A stretch of DNA of 64,000 nt from Anaerocolumna sp. MB42-C2. GTDB lineage: Bacteria; Bacillota; Clostridia; Lachnospirales; Lachnospiraceae. A program made the translations under genes and the position numbers. The DNA lies in assembly GCF_030913705.1 (NCBI RefSeq), contig NZ_CP133190.1:124001-188000 (forward strand), in the 5' to 3' direction. Positions 8,607-35,008 of the stretch are shown piece by piece. How positions within the stretch are numbered: the first letter of the stretch is position 1; each line of letters opens with the position of its first letter. A model generated the notes under the pieces. It saw only the letters and a program-made list of their open reading frames with translations, was not told the DNA's origin and made no database searches.

Positions 8607-8678
8607 GGCTCATTGGTCAAGTGGTCAAGATGTGGCATTCTCAGTGCTGAGACAGGGGTTCGACTCCCCTATGAGCTG
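8607..8678 (+). tRNA. tRNA-Glu (anticodon CUC)
   Basis: The 72-nt sequence folds as a cloverleaf. The acceptor stem is GGCTCAT with ATGAGCT, the anticodon stem is TGGCA/TGCTG with loop TTCTCAG (anticodon CTC), and the T arm is AGGGG-TTCGACT-CCCCT. The 3' CCA is not encoded. The overall layout resembles firmicute glutamate tRNAs. It stands alone, with its own promoter upstream and a terminator just downstream. As tRNA-Glu it is also the class of tRNA used as substrate by HemA, encoded later in the window, although there is no direct linkage. Confidence 0.92.
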
Positions 8679-27318: not shown

Positions 27319-27759
27319 ATGTTAAAAGGTATACCAGCAATTTTATCACCGGAGTTATTAAAAGTACTGTGTGAGATGGGACACAGTGACCGTTTGGTTA
27401 TCTCAGACGGTAATTTTCCTGCGGAATCCATGGGAAAAAATGCGATAGTTATTCGTTGTGACGGACATGGAGTTCCGGAACTATTAGATGCTATATTAAA
27501 AGTGTTTCCTTTAGATACTTATACCGATAAGCCGGTTAACCTCATGGAGGTTATGCCTGGTGATGCGGTTGAAACACCTATTTGGGATACTTATAAAGAA
27601 ATTGTAACAAAATATGATAATCGCGGTGAAAAAGCAGTAGGAGGTATCGAGAGATTTAAATTTTATGAAGAAGCTAAAACAGCTTATGCTATTATAGCTA
27701 CCAGTGAAAAGGCCCTATATGCTAATATTATGCTGCAAAAAGGTGTTGTTGTAGAATAA
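27319..27759 (+). CDS. fucU: L-fucose mutarotase (RbsD/FucU family)
   Basis: A 146-aa cytoplasmic mutarotase that interconverts the alpha and beta anomers of fucose, feeding the isomerase. The catalytic His lies in LCEMGHSDRLVISDGNFPAE, and the IRCDGHGVPELLDAIL and GIERFKFYEEAK segments are family hallmarks. I start at ATG 27319 after TGGAGG; ATG 27307 precedes that site. It closes the fucose unit, and a strong terminator follows. Confidence 0.93.
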   Translation: MLKGIPAILSPELLKVLCEMGHSDRLVISDGNFPAESMGKNAIVIRCDGHGVPELLDAILKVFPLDTYTDKPVNLMEVMPGDAVETPIWDTYKEIVTKYDNRGEKAVGGIERFKFYEEAKTAYAIIATSEKALYANIMLQKGVVVE

Positions 27760-27805
27760 CCATTTTTTTATATCCGTTATTTTAATTCATAAATACTATT
27801 AATAG

Positions 27806-27872
27806 AAAACGGACTTGATGTTTGAGGTGTCATAATTTTTATTAACCTCAATATATCAGGTCTGTTTTTATT
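27806..27872 (+). terminator. terminator of the fucose operon
   Basis: AAAACGGAC-TTGAT-TTGAGGT pairs with ACCTCA-ATATCA-GGTCTGTTTT (3' arm 27845-27868), followed by a T run. Confidence 0.8.
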
Positions 27873-27953
27873 TAACAGGATAGTTCTGAGAAATTTCTTG
27901 TTAAATAAAAGTCAAATAGATGAAATTCTTGTTTATGTTTAAAAAGTTTATGA

Positions 27954-28139
27954 TATAATGAAAGCGGAATGAGGAATTGCAAGTCGTCTTGCAATGCCGA
28001 TTGGAGCAACAAGACCATGAACATGAATTTTGTTCATGGTATAATGAAAGCGGAATGAGGAATTGCAAGTCGTCTTGCAATGCCGATTGGAGCAACAAGA
28101 CCAGGAACATGGTTTTGTTCATGGTATAATGAAAGCGGA
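27954..28139 (+). repeat. 86-bp tandem repeat with internal hairpins upstream of hemA
   Basis: Two full units (27954-28039 and 28040-28124) and a 15-bp third start (28125-28139), nearly identical. Every unit opens TATAATGAAAGCGGAA. It contains the perfect hairpin ATTGCAAG-TCGT-CTTGCAAT and ends with CATGAACA/TGTTCATG, so the next TATAAT directly follows a stem. The 464-bp gap between fucU and hemA also holds the fucose terminator but no gene. I know of no riboswitch class it matches. Confidence 0.88.
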
Positions 28140-28223
28140 AAAAGGAACTGATGATCTGGTATGTAATTATGATTCATTGTTCTGACAGAAATACGCGGGA
28201 AACAGACAGAGAGAGGTTTACCA

Positions 28224-29381
28224 ATGAATATTTATAATATTAGTATAAGTTATAAAACAGCTCCCGTTGAAATAAGAGAGTTATTGGCATTTCAGAAGGA
28301 AGAAAAAATAGATTTTATGAAAGCTGCACTGCAAAAAAGTGATGTCAGTGAATGTGTCCTGATAACCACCTGTAATCGGACAGAAGTATATGCTGTCGGA
28401 GGTAAAATGGCGTCAGATCAGATTATGCAGTTATTAGTGGAAAGAAAAAGATTAAATTATGACCATGTGATAAAATATTATTTTAGGTACCAGAATGAAA
28501 AAGCAGTGAAACATTTATTTCAGGTTACCTGCGGTTTAGATTCTATGTTGATTGGCGAAGATGAAATTCTGGGTCAGGTAAAAGAGGATTATCAATTAGC
28601 CTTACAGGCGGGTACGACGGATTTTTTACTGAATACCTTATTTCGAATTGCTATTACCTGTGCCAAAAAAGTAAAAACGGAAACCAAAATTTCGAAAACC
28701 TCAATTTCTATCGGTACCTTAGCAGCAAATGAAGTAGTTCACTTTTCAAATAAAGATCAGTTGAAAAAAGTTTTAATTATAGGATTATCCGGTAAATTCG
28801 GTACCATAGTAATGAAAAATTTGTACCATAATAAAAATGTTGAAATTATGGGGACGATACGTAACCATAATATACCGGACGAATTAGTTATATCCTACCC
28901 TGAAGTTAAAATGATTGATTATCATAAACGGTATGATACAATGAAAGAAGCAGATGTCATAATCAGTGCAACTTCAAGTCCGCATTATACCATTACAGCA
29001 GAAGAATTAAAGAAGCATATATCAGATAAAAAGGAACAATTGTATATGGACTTGGCGGTACCAACAGACATAGACAAGAATATTGAAAAATTAGAGAATG
29101 TGAAGCTGATAGATATTGATTATTTTAAACAAGTTGCTGAAGTAAATAATAATTTAAAACTTCAGGAAATTGAGGCAGCAAAACTAATCATTGATAAACA
29201 GGTGGATGAATTCTATAAAGAAATAAATTTTAGGAATTTTATTCCCCGGATGAATGAATTAAAAGAAATATTTGAAAATCAACCATTTGAAAGTATAATG
29301 TATAAGATCCGGAATCAAGTAACCAATGATGAGTTGAAAGTGATAATACAAAGCTTGACAAAATTAACTGAAAATAAATAA
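28224..29381 (+). CDS. hemA: glutamyl-tRNA reductase
   Basis: First committed enzyme of C5-pathway tetrapyrrole synthesis: reduces glutamyl-tRNA to glutamate-1-semialdehyde with NADPH. The catalytic Cys is residue 50 in TTCNRTEVYA, the GEDEILGQVK motif (about 113-122) is intact, and the Rossmann region follows at VLIIGLSGKFG (about 187). At 385 aa it is slightly shorter than many homologues, mainly at the C-terminal dimerisation helix. It starts a six-gene tetrapyrrole run after a short leader and the 86-bp repeats. Confidence 0.95.
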   Translation: MNIYNISISYKTAPVEIRELLAFQKEEKIDFMKAALQKSDVSECVLITTCNRTEVYAVGGKMASDQIMQLLVERKRLNYDHVIKYYFRYQNEKAVKHLFQVTCGLDSMLIGEDEILGQVKEDYQLALQAGTTDFLLNTLFRIAITCAKKVKTETKISKTSISIGTLAANEVVHFSNKDQLKKVLIIGLSGKFGTIVMKNLYHNKNVEIMGTIRNHNIPDELVISYPEVKMIDYHKRYDTMKEADVIISATSSPHYTITAEELKKHISDKKEQLYMDLAVPTDIDKNIEKLENVKLIDIDYFKQVAEVNNNLKLQEIEAAKLIIDKQVDEFYKEINFRNFIPRMNELKEIFENQPFESIMYKIRNQVTNDELKVIIQSLTKLTENK

Positions 29382-29407
29382 TACATAAAGGTTTAAGGAG
29401 ATTTAAC

Positions 29408-30037
29408 GTGGCATATTTTCCAATGTTTGTGGATTTAAAAGATGAATTGTGTATTGTAATCGGCGGTGGAATGGTTGCCTGCAGGAAAATAAGAGTCTTA
29501 TTGGAATTTGAAGCAGAAGTAGTTGTTGTTGCCCCGGAATTTTGTGAATGCGTAATGGTTTTAAAGGATAAAATCACATTGATAAATAAATTCTATGAAG
29601 CTACTGATATAAAAGATGCATTCTTAGTAATAGCAGCGACAGATGACATACAATTAAACACAAGGATATCCAGGGAATGCAAGGGACTTAGAATCCCTGT
29701 AAATGTAGTTGATAAAAAGGAAGAATGCAGTTTTATATTTCCGGCCTACGTTAAGAAAGGTGCCATAACCGTGGGTATAACCAGTTCCGGCAAAAGTCCT
29801 GTTATTTCAAAAAGAATTAAAAGCAGAATAAAAGAAGTTATACCTGATTACATGGAAGAACTGGTTGAGATTCTCGGCGATATAAGGGATGAGGTACAGT
29901 TCTTGTTTGAACAGGAGGCAGAGAGGAAACTGGTTTATAAACAGTTAGTGGAATTGGGCTGTTTAAAACAAGGTAAACTGACAAAAACGGATATACAGGA
30001 TGTTATAAAGAGAGTAAAAGAAAATCAGGAAATCTAA
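29408..30037 (+). CDS. precorrin-2 dehydrogenase / sirohydrochlorin ferrochelatase-like
   Basis: A 209-aa homologue of the N-terminal half of CysG (SirC/Met8 type), which oxidises precorrin-2 to sirohydrochlorin with NAD+. The Rossmann motif IVIGGGMVACRK (about residues 16-27) and the ITSSGKSPVISKRIK segment are visible. No methyltransferase domain is attached; that activity lies in the CobA-HemD fusion downstream. It begins at GTG 29408 after AAGGAG. Whether it also inserts iron or cobalt cannot be decided here. Confidence 0.88.
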   Translation: MAYFPMFVDLKDELCIVIGGGMVACRKIRVLLEFEAEVVVVAPEFCECVMVLKDKITLINKFYEATDIKDAFLVIAATDDIQLNTRISRECKGLRIPVNVVDKKEECSFIFPAYVKKGAITVGITSSGKSPVISKRIKSRIKEVIPDYMEELVEILGDIRDEVQFLFEQEAERKLVYKQLVELGCLKQGKLTKTDIQDVIKRVKENQEI

Positions 30038-30058
30038 CGAATTATTGCGGAGGAATCA

Positions 30059-30940
30059 GTGAAACAACATATTAAAATAGGAACAAGAAAAAGTAAACTT
30101 GCAATGGTACAAACGGAAATGGTTGTGGATGCAATAAAAAAAGCAAATCCTGATATAGAAATTGAACTGGTTCCGATGACCACTATGGGAGATCAGATTT
30201 TGGATAAACCGTTAGAAAGTTTTGGTGGTAAAGGAGCGTTTATCAATGAGTTTGAAGATGCCATGCTTACGGGGAAAATTGATATAGCGGTACATAGTGC
30301 AAAAGATATGCCAATCAATCTTCCAAAGGGACTGTCAATTCTTGCCGTATCCTTAAGGGAAGACTTAAGAGACGTACTTGTAACCAGAAAAAATTGCCCG
30401 CTTCCACCTAACGGTATCGTCGGAACCAGCAGCTTAAGAAGACAGATTCAGATAGAGGAATTATACCCGGTACAGGTAAAAAACCTGAGGGGCAATGTCG
30501 GTACCAGGCTATTAAAATTGCAAAATGAAGAATACGACGGTATTATTTTGGCGGCAGCCGGCTTAAAAAGGCTTAACCTGCAAGAGGATAAGGAATATGA
30601 TTTTGAATATTTAGATGAGGAGAGATTTATTCCTGCGGCTGGGCAGGGTATCATAGCTATAGAGGGAAGAGCGGATGCTGCCTTACAAGGAGTATTGCAA
30701 TCATTTAATAATATGGAATCCATGTATAATCTGGAGACAGAAAGAGAAGTATTAAAACTTCTTAATGCAGGATGCAGTGAGCCTATCGGAGTTTATTCCC
30801 ATATTGATAAAGATAAGATAACTCTTCGAGTAATATATAAATATAAAGATAAAGTAATCCGGGTTAAAGGAACTTCCGGAATCGAAGAAAGATTACTTTT
30901 AGCAAAAAAACTGGTAAATGAAATCCTTAATCTGGAGTAA
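30059..30940 (+). CDS. hemC: hydroxymethylbilane synthase (porphobilinogen deaminase)
   Basis: Polymerises four porphobilinogen units to hydroxymethylbilane on a covalent dipyrromethane cofactor. The cofactor-binding Cys lies in LNAGCSEPIGVY (about residue 240). The N-terminal IGTRKSKLAMVQTEMV and the VHSAKDMP motif are textbook. Length 293 aa is normal. Start at GTG 30059, preceded by GGAGG at 6-7 nt. It is 21 bp from the preceding gene and clearly co-transcribed. Confidence 0.96.
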   Translation: MKQHIKIGTRKSKLAMVQTEMVVDAIKKANPDIEIELVPMTTMGDQILDKPLESFGGKGAFINEFEDAMLTGKIDIAVHSAKDMPINLPKGLSILAVSLREDLRDVLVTRKNCPLPPNGIVGTSSLRRQIQIEELYPVQVKNLRGNVGTRLLKLQNEEYDGIILAAAGLKRLNLQEDKEYDFEYLDEERFIPAAGQGIIAIEGRADAALQGVLQSFNNMESMYNLETEREVLKLLNAGCSEPIGVYSHIDKDKITLRVIYKYKDKVIRVKGTSGIEERLLLAKKLVNEILNLE

Positions 30941-31039
30941 TCTAGTTTAGTTAAAAAGTTTTTTAATTCAGATTAATGAGGTTTTATTAAAACGTATAGG
31001 AACCACTACGAATTAAATGTATACTGGCAGGAGATTTAT

Positions 31040-32548
31040 ATGGATAAAAATGGGATGGTTTATTTGGTAGGTGCCGGACCGGGTGATCCGGAACTGCTGA
31101 CCTTAAAAGGAAAAGCAAGATTAGAGGAATGTGAAGTAGTAATTTATGACAGATTAGCTTCTGATTCTTTGCTGGATTTCGTGCCTTTAAAAAGTGAGAA
31201 AATTTATGTAGGTAAAGAAGTCGGAAGACATAGCTTTAATCAGGAAGCCATAAATCAAATTATTGTAGAAAAAGCCTTAGAGGGGAAAAGGGTTGTTCGC
31301 TTAAAAGGCGGTGATCCTTTCGTATTCGGAAGGGGCGGAGAAGAAGTAATGGCTTTACAAAAGGCCGGTATACCATTTCAGGTAATACCGGGAATCACAT
31401 CAGCGATTGCAGCTGCAACATATGCGGGAATACCCGTAACCCATAGAGGTATCAGCAGAAGTTTTCACGTTGTTACAGGTCATACGAAGGATACTGATAA
31501 TGAGCTCGCGGAAAATTTTGAAACTTTGGCTAAATTAGAGGGAACTCTTATTTTTTTAATGGGAATGGGCAATTTATCGCGTATTGTTAAGGAATTGATA
31601 AGATATGGTAAGGATGGCAATACTCCGGCAGCAGTTATTTCAAAGGGGACTACAATTCAGCAAAAAACGGTTAGGGGTACTTTAGTTACCATAGAGGAAA
31701 AAGTAAAGGAAGAGAAGGTTGTGGCACCGGCTGTTATCCTTATTGGAGCTGTTACGGATCTTGATATGAATGCGGTACAATATGGCAAGTTGTCAGGGTT
31801 AAAGATAGGCGTGACCGGCACTCCTGAATTAGCGGAGAAAATAGCGAATCAGTTAAGAAATGAGAAAGCTTATGTAGATAATCTAAGCTTTTTATATGTG
31901 AAAGAATCGGAGAAACTTGCTGAACTAAAAAGCGCTGTCGATAGTATTTCAGAATATACCTGGATTGTGTTTACCAGTACGAATGGAGTTGATCTGTTTT
32001 TTCAATATTTAAAGGAAAACCAATTTGATTATCGTAAGTTAGGTCATATTTCTTTTGCGGCAGTTGGAAATGGGACAAAAGAAGCCCTTATGAGGCAGGG
32101 ATTTATGGCAGATTATGTGCCGGAGTTATATACAACCGTATTCTTAGCTAACGGACTGGTTAAATTATTAACAAAAGAAGATAAAGTACTGATTCCACGA
32201 GCTGCGAATGGTTCAAAGGATTTAACGAAAATTTTAAGCGATTATTTAGTACCTTATACGGACATTAAATTATATTCAATTGAGATAGATCAGGAAAAGC
32301 GTAAAAGGATAATTTCAGAACTGATAGATTATGATTATATAACTTTCGCCAGTGCTTCAGGTGTTGAGGGTTTTTTTAAAGAAGCAGACAGTTTAATACT
32401 TAATACCGAGAAAACTAAGATTATCTGCATTGGTGATATTACAGCGAAGAAACTACGAGAATACGGAGTAACGAATTACTGTATAGCAAGAGAATATAGT
32501 GTACCTGGATTGGTTTCTTGTATTATAGAAGATACCAATAGGATATAG
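31040..32548 (+). CDS. cobA-hemD: uroporphyrinogen-III C-methyltransferase / uroporphyrinogen-III synthase fusion
   Basis: A 502-aa two-domain enzyme. Residues 1-245 are SUMT (CobA): VYLVGAGPGDPELLTLKG, RLKGGDPFVFGRGGEE and PVTHRGISRSF are its SAM and substrate motifs. Residues about 255-500 are the HemD uroporphyrinogen-III synthase fold, more divergent, with WIVFTSTNGVDLFF and ITFASASGVEGFF. Together they close hydroxymethylbilane to uroporphyrinogen III and methylate it to precorrin-2, steering flux to siroheme and cobalamin. The fusion is common in clostridia. A GGAG site precedes the ATG. Confidence 0.94.
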   Translation: MDKNGMVYLVGAGPGDPELLTLKGKARLEECEVVIYDRLASDSLLDFVPLKSEKIYVGKEVGRHSFNQEAINQIIVEKALEGKRVVRLKGGDPFVFGRGGEEVMALQKAGIPFQVIPGITSAIAAATYAGIPVTHRGISRSFHVVTGHTKDTDNELAENFETLAKLEGTLIFLMGMGNLSRIVKELIRYGKDGNTPAAVISKGTTIQQKTVRGTLVTIEEKVKEEKVVAPAVILIGAVTDLDMNAVQYGKLSGLKIGVTGTPELAEKIANQLRNEKAYVDNLSFLYVKESEKLAELKSAVDSISEYTWIVFTSTNGVDLFFQYLKENQFDYRKLGHISFAAVGNGTKEALMRQGFMADYVPELYTTVFLANGLVKLLTKEDKVLIPRAANGSKDLTKILSDYLVPYTDIKLYSIEIDQEKRKRIISELIDYDYITFASASGVEGFFKEADSLILNTEKTKIICIGDITAKKLREYGVTNYCIAREYSVPGLVSCIIEDTNRI

Positions 32549-32664
32549 GATTTAATTTTAATTAAAGTCTGGGTACGTTTACACAACGTGACACTAATTG
32601 ACCTATGCAACTTTAATTATATGATAAAAAAGATATATAAAACGATGTTATTCAGGAGGATAAT

Positions 32665-33633
32665 ATGATTAGGAGAAGACGGCTTCGAGTAAATGAAACG
32701 ATACGGGCATTAGTCAGAGAAACCAATATACAGATAACGGATCTTGTATATCCAATCTTTGTAGTGGAGGGGGAAAATCAAAAAAATCCTGTGGATTCCA
32801 TGCCTGGAATTTATCAATATTCTATAGACAGATTGGAAGAAGAATTAGAGCGTATTAAAATAAGCGGAGTAAAAAGCATACTGATCTTCGGAATTCCGGA
32901 ACATAAGGATGAAGTGGGTAGTCAGGCTTATGATGAGAATGGAATTGTACAAAATGCAATCCGTTTTATAAAGGAAAACTATCCGGATTTCGTTGTGATT
33001 GCTGATATCTGCCTTTGTGAATATACGTCTCATGGTCATTGTGGTTTAATTAAGGACGGAATGATACTAAATGATGAAACATTACCTTTATTAGCTGAAG
33101 CTGCGGTTACCTGTGCAAAAGCAGGAGCTGATATAATAGCTCCATCCGATATGATGGATGGTCATATCCATGCGATCCGTATTGCACTGGATGAAAAAGG
33201 ATATCTTCATACTCCTATTATGGCCTACAGTGCGAAATATTCTTCCGGATATTATTCTCCTTTTCGTGATGCGGCGCATTCCGCACCGGCATTCGGTGAC
33301 CGTAAAACCTATCAGATGGATTATGCTAACGTGAAAGAGGCTGTGCGTGAAGTAAAGGATGATATTGAAGAGGGGGCCGATATTGTTATGGTTAAACCAG
33401 CTTTAGCTTATTTGGATGTCATTAAAACGGTTGCACTTGAGACAGATTATCCTATTGCTGCTTATAATGTAAGCGGTGAATTTGCTATGGTGAAAGCAGC
33501 AGCTTTAAATGGATGGATTGATGAGAAAAAGATTGTGATGGAAAATTTGATTGCAATGAAAAGGGCAGGTGCTAAAATAATTATTACCTATCATGCACTG
33601 GATGTTGCCGGCTGGATAGCCACTAATGAGTAG
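32665..33633 (+). CDS. hemB: porphobilinogen synthase (ALA dehydratase)
   Basis: Condenses two 5-aminolevulinate molecules to porphobilinogen. Both Schiff-base lysines are visible, in AYSAKYSSGYYSPFRD (about 194) and VMVKPALAYLDV (about 246). The zinc-type cysteines are in DICLCEYTSHGHCG (about 115-128). Length 322 aa is normal. An AGGAGG site precedes the ATG. The gene order hemA-sirC-hemC-cobA/hemD-hemB-hemL matches many anaerobic firmicutes. Confidence 0.96.
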   Translation: MIRRRRLRVNETIRALVRETNIQITDLVYPIFVVEGENQKNPVDSMPGIYQYSIDRLEEELERIKISGVKSILIFGIPEHKDEVGSQAYDENGIVQNAIRFIKENYPDFVVIADICLCEYTSHGHCGLIKDGMILNDETLPLLAEAAVTCAKAGADIIAPSDMMDGHIHAIRIALDEKGYLHTPIMAYSAKYSSGYYSPFRDAAHSAPAFGDRKTYQMDYANVKEAVREVKDDIEEGADIVMVKPALAYLDVIKTVALETDYPIAAYNVSGEFAMVKAAALNGWIDEKKIVMENLIAMKRAGAKIIITYHALDVAGWIATNE

Positions 33634-33657
33634 TTATGAAAATTAGATTAGGAAAGG

Positions 33658-33701
33658 TTGCCGTGCTGTGATTCTTCACATATTACGTGGCAATATCACA
33701 G
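33658..33701 (+). other. interleaved inverted repeats upstream of hemL
   Basis: TTGCC (33658-33662) can pair with GGCAA (33689-33693), and CTGTGAT (33666-33672) with ATCACAG (33695-33701). The pairs interleave (A-B-A'-B'), so an RNA could form a pseudoknot or switch between two stems 33 nt before the start codon of hemL. Confidence 0.4.
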
Positions 33702-33733
33702 ATTGATTTAAACGGTATTAATGGAGACAGAAC

Positions 33734-35008
33734 ATGAAAAATCAAACATCAGAAATATTGTATAAGGAAGCAGTCGGAATTTTACCGGGTGGTGTGAACA
33801 GTCCGGTCAGAGCTTTTAGAGCGGTAGGCAGAACTCCGGTTTTTATAGAAAAAGCAAAAGGCAGCAGAATTTATGATGTAGACGGTAATGAATACATTGA
33901 TTATGTATGTTCCTGGGGTCCTGCTATTTTAGGTCATGCCCAGGAAGCTGTTATAGAAGCGGTTAACAAGGCAGTAAGGGATGGTTTGACTTTTGGAGCG
34001 CCTACTAAAAAAGAAGTGATATTGGCTGAATTAATCAATCAGATAATGCCTTCCATGGAAATGGTACGTTTAGTGAGTTCTGGGACAGAAGCCGTTATGA
34101 GTGCCATCCGGACTGCCAGAGGTTTCACAAAAAAGGATATGATAATCAAATTCAGAGGGTGTTACCACGGTCATTCAGACGGTTTACTAGTGAAGGCAGG
34201 TTCCGGAGCGCTTACCCAGGCAGTACCTGACAGTGCAGGTGTTCCTAAATCATATACCAAGAATACCCTAATTGCAGAGTATAATGATAAATCATCCGTA
34301 CAGCAATTATTTGATGAATATAAAGGAAAAATTGCCGCGGTTGTTGTGGAACCGGTAGCCGCCAATATGGGTGTGGTTCTTCCGGAAGAAGATTTTTTAC
34401 CTTTCTTAAGAAATATTACGGAAGAGAATGATGCTTTACTTATTTTTGATGAAGTAATTACAGGCTTTCGTTTAGGAATCGGCGGAGCTCAGGATTATTA
34501 TAAAATAAAACCGGATCTTACAACCCTTGGGAAAATTGTAGGCGGAGGGATGCCAATCGGAGCTTATGGCGGAAGAAAAGACATTATGCAGATGGTATCA
34601 CCCTTAGGACCTGTTTACCAGGCAGGAACCTTATCAGGAAATCCCGTAGCAACAGCGGCCGGAATAAAAACTCTTGAAATATTAAATGATAATCCTCAAT
34701 ATTATAAAGAAATGGAATGGAAAGCAATGCAACTAGCAACTGCTTTTACGGAACGTAACAAAGACAAAAAGGAATCGATTCAGGTGAACCGGATTGGTTC
34801 CCTGGTATGTGCTTTTTTTACAGATCATAAAGTAAAAGATTATAATTCTGCTATTACTTCCGATACCGCTAAGTATTCTGAGTATTTTGGAAAAATGATG
34901 GATAATGGAATTTATATCGCTCCGTCACAGTTTGAAGCCATGTTTGTATCGGCTGCCCACACAGAGGCAGATATTAAGGCAACCTGTCAGGTAATAAAAA
35001 ATATATAA
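33734..35008 (+). CDS. hemL: glutamate-1-semialdehyde 2,1-aminomutase
   Basis: PLP enzyme converting glutamate-1-semialdehyde to 5-aminolevulinate. The PLP lysine is in TTLGKIVGGGMPIGAYGG (about residue 268), with the DEVITGFR motif before it. The N-terminal GILPGGVNSPVRAF is a family signature. Length 424 aa is normal. It is the last gene of the tetrapyrrole run and ends at a strong two-way terminator. The 100-bp spacer before it contains the possible pseudoknot listed separately. Confidence 0.96.
   Translation: MKNQTSEILYKEAVGILPGGVNSPVRAFRAVGRTPVFIEKAKGSRIYDVDGNEYIDYVCSWGPAILGHAQEAVIEAVNKAVRDGLTFGAPTKKEVILAELINQIMPSMEMVRLVSSGTEAVMSAIRTARGFTKKDMIIKFRGCYHGHSDGLLVKAGSGALTQAVPDSAGVPKSYTKNTLIAEYNDKSSVQQLFDEYKGKIAAVVVEPVAANMGVVLPEEDFLPFLRNITEENDALLIFDEVITGFRLGIGGAQDYYKIKPDLTTLGKIVGGGMPIGAYGGRKDIMQMVSPLGPVYQAGTLSGNPVATAAGIKTLEILNDNPQYYKEMEWKAMQLATAFTERNKDKKESIQVNRIGSLVCAFFTDHKVKDYNSAITSDTAKYSEYFGKMMDNGIYIAPSQFEAMFVSAAHTEADIKATCQVIKNI

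Follow-up and report, generated by a model that had tools for sequence, protein, structure and literature searches.

The tandem repeat upstream of hemA in Anaerocolumna sp. MB42-C2 belongs to a family of interspersed elements of about 86 bp that is not specific to hemA. Judging from comparisons of filled and unfilled sites in related genomes, the family very probably represents a miniature mobile element with promoter sequence of its own, which inserts into sigma-A promoters just behind the -10 hexamer, in a fixed orientation, and gives rise to promoters in tandem. Its arrays, of one to five units, precede many kinds of genes, including the housekeeping genes hemA, lexA, ftsZ and clpX. Mobile promoters are known; the family described here would be distinguished by entry directly behind the -10 hexamer in a single orientation, which leaves the gene with a promoter, and by the stacking of units.

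Results

A tandem repeat between the fuc genes and hemA

We analyzed a stretch of 64,000 nucleotides (the window; positions 124,001 to 188,000 of NZ_CP133190.1), in which a preliminary description had noted an 86-bp tandem repeat restarting at TATAAT before hemA. Our reading confirms this repeat (Table 1): TATAATGAAAGCGGAA begins at 27954, 28040 and 28125 (spacing of 86 and 85), a repeat search of the window returned an 85-nt direct repeat (27946–28030 and 28032–28116; 94% identity), and a 38-nt repeat family has its third copy at 28113–28150 (92%). Two units (86 and 85 bp) and a third start are thereby placed between the fuc genes and hemA. The six-gene tetrapyrrole operon described behind the repeat is likewise borne out by protein family matches and comprises hemA, a siroheme-synthase N-domain gene, hemC, cobA with a hemD-like second half, hemB and hemL (28224–35008), with the hemD part of the cobA fusion scoring below curated cut-offs. 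Between the fuc genes and the hemA promoter, A/T-rich inverted repeats (27803–27910) possibly form a terminator for the upstream genes.

Table 1. Features of the repeat and its surroundings upstream of hemA (positions in the window).
Feature	Position	Strand	Basis or remark
Putative extended -10 box of the host promoter of hemA (TGATATAAT)	27951–27959	+	Element begins directly 3'
Unit 1 (86 bp), own terminal TATAAT at 28040–28045	27960–28045	+	Direct read, repeat search
Unit 1, hairpin P1	27973–27998	+	Covariation in 74 units
Unit 1, outer closing pairs across the purine-rich 7x7 internal loop	27964–27965 / 28006–28007	+	Covariation in 74 units
Unit 1, hairpin P2	28014–28040	+	5' arm with -35-like TGAACA; 3' arm enters next TATAAT
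Unit 2 (85 bp), terminal TATAAT at 28125–28130	28046–28130	+	Direct read, repeat search
Unit 2, hairpin P1	28059–28084	+	Fold, covariation
Unit 2, hairpin P2	28100–28125	+	Position from the alignment; one arm base differs (CAGGAACA); the minimum-energy fold of this unit uses another hairpin
Remnant start of a third unit, or similar host leader	28131–28150	+	Third copy of the 38-nt family, 92%
hemA, glutamyl-tRNA reductase, first gene of the operon	28224–29381	+	TIGR01035, 272.9 bits (cut-off 209.55)

Each unit had been described as containing two hairpins. The first (ATTGCAAG-TCGT-CTTGCAAT) is present in both units; the second (P2) is perfect in unit 1, and in unit 2 its 5' arm is altered to CAGGAACA, the predicted minimum-energy fold having a different second hairpin (CAACAAGACC paired with GGUUUUGUUC). 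Compared with dinucleotide shuffles, folding gave z = -4.03 for unit 1 and -3.61 for unit 2, with 0 of 200 shuffles as good in each case. The repeat had previously not been matched to any named riboswitch class, and this holds after an Rfam search: at the gathering score, only a tRNA (8607–8678) was found in the window, and a permissive search of 27700–28300 returned four eukaryotic families far below their cut-offs. No terminator-like site was found on the coding strand of 27700–28300.

An interspersed family centered on the genus

While the preliminary description captured the repeat locally, it missed the interspersed and inserted nature of the element. The own genome (G000; a single contig of 6.44 Mb) has seven loci with matches at E < 0.001, namely hemA, an AraC-type gene, a sensor-kinase gene next to what we take to be metK, a gene that we presume to be yaaR-like (its protein has no NCBIfam hit), an unnamed gene, addB and relQ; the other names are the best NCBIfam families of the orthologues. 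A first sequence search found the unit in 8 of 14 further genomes of the genus; 10 genomes representing other genera in the family had none, and 16 from other families gave a single weak match. With a covariance model (R1) built from 74 units, we obtained 196 matches at E 0.01 in 10 of 15 genus genomes. Each of these contained 3 to 62 matches (62 in G002, 41 in G007, 23 in G001, 18 in G006, 12 in G000, 10 each in G011, G012 and G013, 7 in G014, and 3 weaker ones in G009). Among 299 genomes of the family (E 1e-4), 7 match, of which two are of the same genus and five are among the 297 from other genera, and among 391 genomes of the class the own genome alone matches; both searches used stricter filters, with which weak copies can be missed. 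At asnS, the own genome retains a decayed unit (L314:1704–1800; 42.7 bits), detected when this locus was searched with the model alongside the unfilled loci described below; it is absent from the matches listed genome-wide, so old copies may be undercounted.

Units in the five other genera are shorter or changed, follow the same plan and start at or near TGATATAAT; several precede genes that we take, from their translated starts, to be pyrH, glyA, asnS and murA. Such versions lie in stretches L199–L203, L206–L208, L210, L211, L214, L215, L218, L219, L222 and L225. In one of these genera (G128; 18 matches at E 0.5), P2 consists of a short palindrome (ATCATGAACTTGTTCATGAT), and two of the units are spaced by 69 bp. 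The exact 20-base start of the unit occurs in 21 stretches of named genomes. In 16 of them, from Anaerocolumna sedimenticola (including CBA3638, NZ_CP048000.1), Herbinix MAGs and Clostridiales MAGs, the model finds a unit; the five without (L082, L083, L086, L087 and L091, including Prevotellaceae, Bacteroidaceae and Christensenella MAGs) we take for chance matches. Viral contigs gave no exact match to the 20-base start, and plasmids no blastn match to 27760–28300. Searches of databases and of the literature, mostly outside subscription journals, yielded no description of a family of about 86 bp, nor did the literature yield an element entering behind a -10 box in one orientation; the accessible part of PMC2267715 contains nothing on such a family.

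Two covarying hairpins per unit

The alignment underlying the model started from 87 near-full units, of which 76 were kept after near-identical ones were dropped; L134, L135 and L177 (82, 90 and 114 nt compared to ~94) were removed by hand and window unit 2 was added, giving 74 rows. Its units share one order: the host TATAAT, GAAAGCG, P1, the linker ACAAGA, and P2, whose 3' arm enters the next hexamer. The sequence of P1 varies between loci with its pairing kept, and an outer helix of two pairs closes a purine-rich 7x7 internal loop. Both hairpins covary clearly. In the 74 units, 93.3% of cells pair, a value that falls from 93% to 23–41% when the 3' partners are slid, and double changes occur at 17 of 24 pairs compared to 9.5 in shuffles (0 of 500 shuffles reach 17). 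Mutual information computed without a given structure ranks five model pairs on top (35-55, 40-50, 39-51, 76-103 and 21-63); the best 40 column pairs contain 11 stem pairs, the others (e.g. 19-21 and 7-70) not being stem pairs. Such a covarying, structured family is missing from Rfam.

Seven internal-loop columns (20, 23, 29, 60, 61, 64 and 66) hold G or A in 67–74 of the 74 rows, which suggests possible non-standard G-A pairs. As read from the alignment, the outer bases of the P2 5' arm covary with the two bases that precede the hexamer (CC/GG, TC/GA, AA/TT, AC/GT, GC/GC). A strand test counted 59 G-U and 39 A-C pairs (binomial p 0.054), with no excess over shuffles. The sequence GGAG...ATG is present in many of the 74 units and lost in some, and changes in the loop do not look synonymous by eye; read in this way, the alignment makes no convincing case for a leader peptide.

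The ends of the element are not inverted copies of each other (left GAAAGCGG, right ...TTCATGATATAAT), and an inverted-repeat search of 27400–28700 (minimum 12 nt) found no pair matching them. Both borders often read TATAAT, the right one being part of the element's hairpin and predicted promoter and able to differ (TCTAAT, TCCAAT). Like a MITE, the element is short and interspersed, with filled and unfilled sites.

Arrays face the downstream gene and begin at promoters

Arrays were counted in the window and in 100 stretches taken from nine genomes, a total of 101 arrays that covers part of the 196 matches (G007:C2:96264, G013:C84 and G013:C86, among others, and the G009 matches were left out). 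Counting partial units, 58 arrays have one unit, 27 two, 12 three, three have four and one has five. According to a simple ORF-calling script that takes the first long downstream ORF, this ORF lies on the same strand in 91 arrays and on the opposite strand in 4, with none called in 6, at a median distance of 52 nt from the array to the ORF start; upstream, the corresponding numbers are 57, 40 and 4. One opposite-strand call (L115), retained in the count, looks spurious because a + strand gene follows. Directly downstream of the L236 array, a sequence resembling a tRNA gene is visible on the other strand.

Apart from the hem operon, 24 downstream proteins were scanned against NCBIfam, and no common pathway is visible. 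Their best families include addB, relQ, lexA, ftsZ, clpX, recQ, uvrC, dnaE and sufC, as well as asnS, floT, nicotinate phosphoribosyltransferase, [FeFe] hydrogenase and ferritin, names that denote best matches only, since queries were cut at 400 amino acids and several scores fall below curated cut-offs. Going by these names, several of the genes concern DNA repair. The element precedes asnS in G001 and, by eye from translated starts, also in G002 and in G128 from another genus.

At the left flank, 89 of the 101 arrays could be anchored and share the consensus TATGATATAAT (T88 A84 T93 G91 A89 percent), with TG before the hexamer in 77 of the 89. Agreement with TTGACA is highest at a spacer of 17 (on average 2.53 of 6 bases match, compared to 1.4–2.1 at other spacers), where 18 of 89 arrays show at least four matches (0–10 at other spacers). 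This consensus, together with a -35 signal at a spacer of exactly 17, indicates that the left flanks are promoters. The right-end hexamer is TATAAT in 49 of 74 units and differs in 25. Among the latter, TCTAAT (7 of 74) and GCTAAT (2 of 74) add a G-C pair to P2 and weaken the -10, so that in these units the hairpin appears to have been kept at the cost of the promoter.

In the window, unit 1 contains a putative element promoter (TGAACA-16-TATAAT with TG-N before the -10; 28018–28045). A consensus promoter scan of this locus found 4 sites compared to 3.0 (sd 1.7) in shuffles, which is not above chance; it calls the site at 28040 and neither that at 27954, where no -35 exceeds the threshold, nor that at 28125. 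Of three guesses in the preliminary description (tandem promoters, a duplicated ligand-sensing RNA or a copy-variable phase switch), tandem promoters fit best: the first TATAAT is a continuation of the host promoter, and the units close with a hairpin followed by TATAAT.

Insertion immediately behind the -10 hexamer

We read orthologues for 21 loci, chosen for genes that are easy to find in relatives and not at random, and nine of these entered a flank-joining alignment test. At six of the nine (lexA, a [FeFe] hydrogenase-like gene, a ferritin-like gene, the L129 gene, asnS and clpX), the joined flanks of the filled copy reproduce the unfilled orthologue and align gap-free across the junction. 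The identity is 83/90 at lexA and 80/89 at the hydrogenase-like gene, and the inserts at the clean loci measure 86–88 bp for one unit and 259 bp for three. At lexA, G000 has the unfilled site ...CTATGTTATAAT / GGGATAAATTAATGAG, and G006 carries one 87-bp unit exactly at the slash; at the hydrogenase-like gene, the unfilled site of G000 reads ...TGTGATATAAT / AATTCCAGTG, with one 86-bp unit of G006 at the slash. The alignments of these six loci show that the element was inserted into an existing predicted promoter, directly 3' of its -10 hexamer and reading towards the gene.

The remaining three tested loci are not clean: floT (L119) is gapped near the border, at L142 the left side alone aligns, and at L121 the right end of the array could not be placed. 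At L121, the native hexamer is TGTAAT in G000 and G006, and the filled copy also has TGTAAT, which shows that the left -10 belongs to the host. Two loci do not fit the pattern, as the element lies ~55 nt downstream of the native -10 at L126, and L135 retains its native -10 on the downstream side of the element. Units or remains are present in all near relatives shown at relQ (G011, G012 and G014 read), L171b and L115; the unfilled relative is distant at the nicotinate phosphoribosyltransferase locus; L139 and L140 have TGN-TATAAT in unfilled relatives with flanks too diverged; and the orthologous sites of L099, L127, L131 and L149 could not be aligned. When 22 unfilled loci were searched with the model at E 0.1, 21 gave no match, and the weak match at L335 (E 0.037) lies away from the junction.

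Three loci (L246/L248; L326/L328 with L142; L334/L337 with L121) differ in the base that separates TG from the -10 hexamer: the filled copy has A there and unfilled relatives have T, even where the native TGTAAT is kept. This change is unexplained by simple insertion; conversion on insertion or a target preference is possible. The native clpX promoter in G006 and G000 (L335, L336) has a palindrome, GTACACCTGTTCGGTGTAC, just upstream of the -10 that looks like an operator. A copy consisting of the right half only (L148:813–865) follows a terminator-like hairpin and might be what remains of a longer element; the idea that it marks the end of such a parent was discarded, no transposase-like ORF being recognized by eye among the ORFs listed.

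For hemA itself, 10 genes were found in the 15 genus genomes: two loci carry the element and eight have no match to the model. Unfilled leaders of G010, G004, G011, G012 and G014 each contain one TGN-TATAAT in the 330 nt read, and only the flank of G010 visibly resembles that of the window. Of the other unfilled leaders, G008 has two close TATAAT, G009 a TATAAT lacking TG further up, and G002 none that was recognized.

Growth of arrays

Spacing is 85–88 in 33 of 38 neighboring unit pairs, and neighbors are at least 0.96 identical in 17 of the 38 and 0.67–0.94 identical in 21. Between loci of one genome, the median identity of units is 0.83 and single pairs reach 1.0, so identity alone is no proof of tandem duplication. 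We infer that arrays probably grow by two routes, namely tandem duplication and, where neighbors are of different subtype, repeated insertion. By the neighbor-pair measure, the two hemA units are 97% alike in the window and 99% alike in G006, and the G006 units are 91 and 89% identical to window unit 1; this combination suggests that the hemA pairs were probably made or homogenized after the split of the two genomes. Between species, copy number also differs at orthologous loci: at a fructokinase-like (kinase) locus (5, 2 and 1 units in G012, G014 and G011), at the yaaR-like locus (3 in G006, 1 in G000) and at an ftsA-related gene (2 in G006, 1 in G000).

Discussion

Proposed mechanism and alternative explanations

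In the mechanism that we propose, a unit of 86–88 bp, or an array, would enter directly 3' of a host -10 hexamer, pointing towards the gene. As the right end consists of a hairpin and a -10-like hexamer, an inserted copy would usually end in a new -10 beside the untouched host leader, and this new -10 could let further copies stack in tandem. Each unit would add a predicted promoter and a structured leader. In the window, hemA may use its own promoter (-10 at 27954) together with element promoters (-10 at 28040 and, with less certainty, at 28125), and starts are accordingly predicted near 27965, 28051 and perhaps 28136; the longer transcripts would carry one or two structured leaders and may differ in mRNA stability or translation. 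Whereas the insertion pattern is seen directly in the alignments of six loci, we can only conjecture, and with considerable doubt, that the element homes to open promoters by inserting into the melted -10, probably as a folded single strand, so that the transcription bubble would set position and orientation, and that it rebuilds the -10, which would keep it transcribed and open to renewed targeting.

Other explanations account for parts of these data. The strong covariation, the purines kept at seven internal-loop positions, the leader position before genes and the recurrence at asnS would all suit a cis-regulatory RNA (a riboswitch, attenuator or protein-binding leader) common to a regulon and duplicated at hemA. 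Against such an RNA, the genes have no visible common function, orthologues in near relatives have no element, the window locus has no terminator-like site on the coding strand, and Rfam gives no match; we consider it quite improbable. Its specific form, a duplicated ligand-sensing RNA for the hem genes, as once suggested, is rejected on two grounds: unrelated genes follow the unit elsewhere, and 8 of the 10 hemA loci have no match to the model. A strain-variable phase switch for hem expression, for which the differing copy number between species and the near identity of the tandem units in the window might speak, we regard as highly improbable, as no case of switching was seen with one genome per species.

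Two further views concern how copies spread, and we consider each of them unlikely. Recombination between short promoter homologies, by gene conversion or slippage and with no dedicated mobility, would leave only promoter-keeping copies to survive; it is in line with the motif TGATATAAT common to both borders, with the high similarity of neighboring units and with the T-to-A change before the hexamer, which could be conversion. Precise new copies at unrelated loci in several species argue against it, and ~9 bp of homology is little for recombination. The other view holds that the element is REP-like or derived from IS200/IS605 and owes its movement to a Y1 (HUH) transposase, the hairpins close to its two ends and the -10 box serving as end structures and cleavage site. 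The ends of IS200/IS605-type elements comprise a target, a short spacer, a hairpin, a second hairpin and a cleavage-like site, an architecture that the element resembles, and its single orientation and lack of inverted repeats agree with this origin. Against it, Y1_Tnp (PF01797, E 0.001) occurs in 5 of 10 genomes with matches and in 2 of 5 without, a distribution that shows no association and on which we rejected the Y1 transposase link; the family is absent from the carriers G000, G006, G007, G009 and G011, although some carrier genomes are incomplete. A mobile element of the kind favored here would constitute a natural system for promoter rewiring, and it allows target choice by promoters to be tested in bacteria.

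Comparison with known systems

Correia elements have terminal inverted repeats. According to PMC10969869, these Neisseria elements are small, interspersed, often located immediately upstream of genes and furnished with sigma-70-like promoters, as are other MITEs, and they can invert. By comparison, the ~86-bp element is likewise small, interspersed and upstream of genes with promoter-like sequence, but it has no inverted repeats, keeps one orientation, enters behind a host -10 and stacks in tandem. The BOX elements of Streptococcus pneumoniae are composite and foldable, with a variable number of tandem modules, can be transcribed in 5' leaders, and have boxA/boxC ends similar to the inverted repeats of an IS, as stated in PMC3049150. 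Both families are foldable and tandemly repeated, whereas the ~86-bp element repeats the whole unit, each behind a -10 box. REPs are described in PMC3733652 as short dispersed hairpin repeats with RAYT transposases, namely palindromes of 20–40 bp ending in GTAG or CGTC. Compared with this description, the ~86-bp element is also a dispersed hairpin repeat, but it comprises two hairpins in 86 bp, is located at promoters and shows no association with Y1 transposase genes. The bcr1-type repeats of the Bacillus cereus group are mobile and foldable and differ in target and ends; they are not known to occur at promoters in fixed orientation. Putative mobile promoters share the idea that a promoter is copied to new genes; the ~86-bp element is set apart from these as a defined folded unit with precise unfilled sites.
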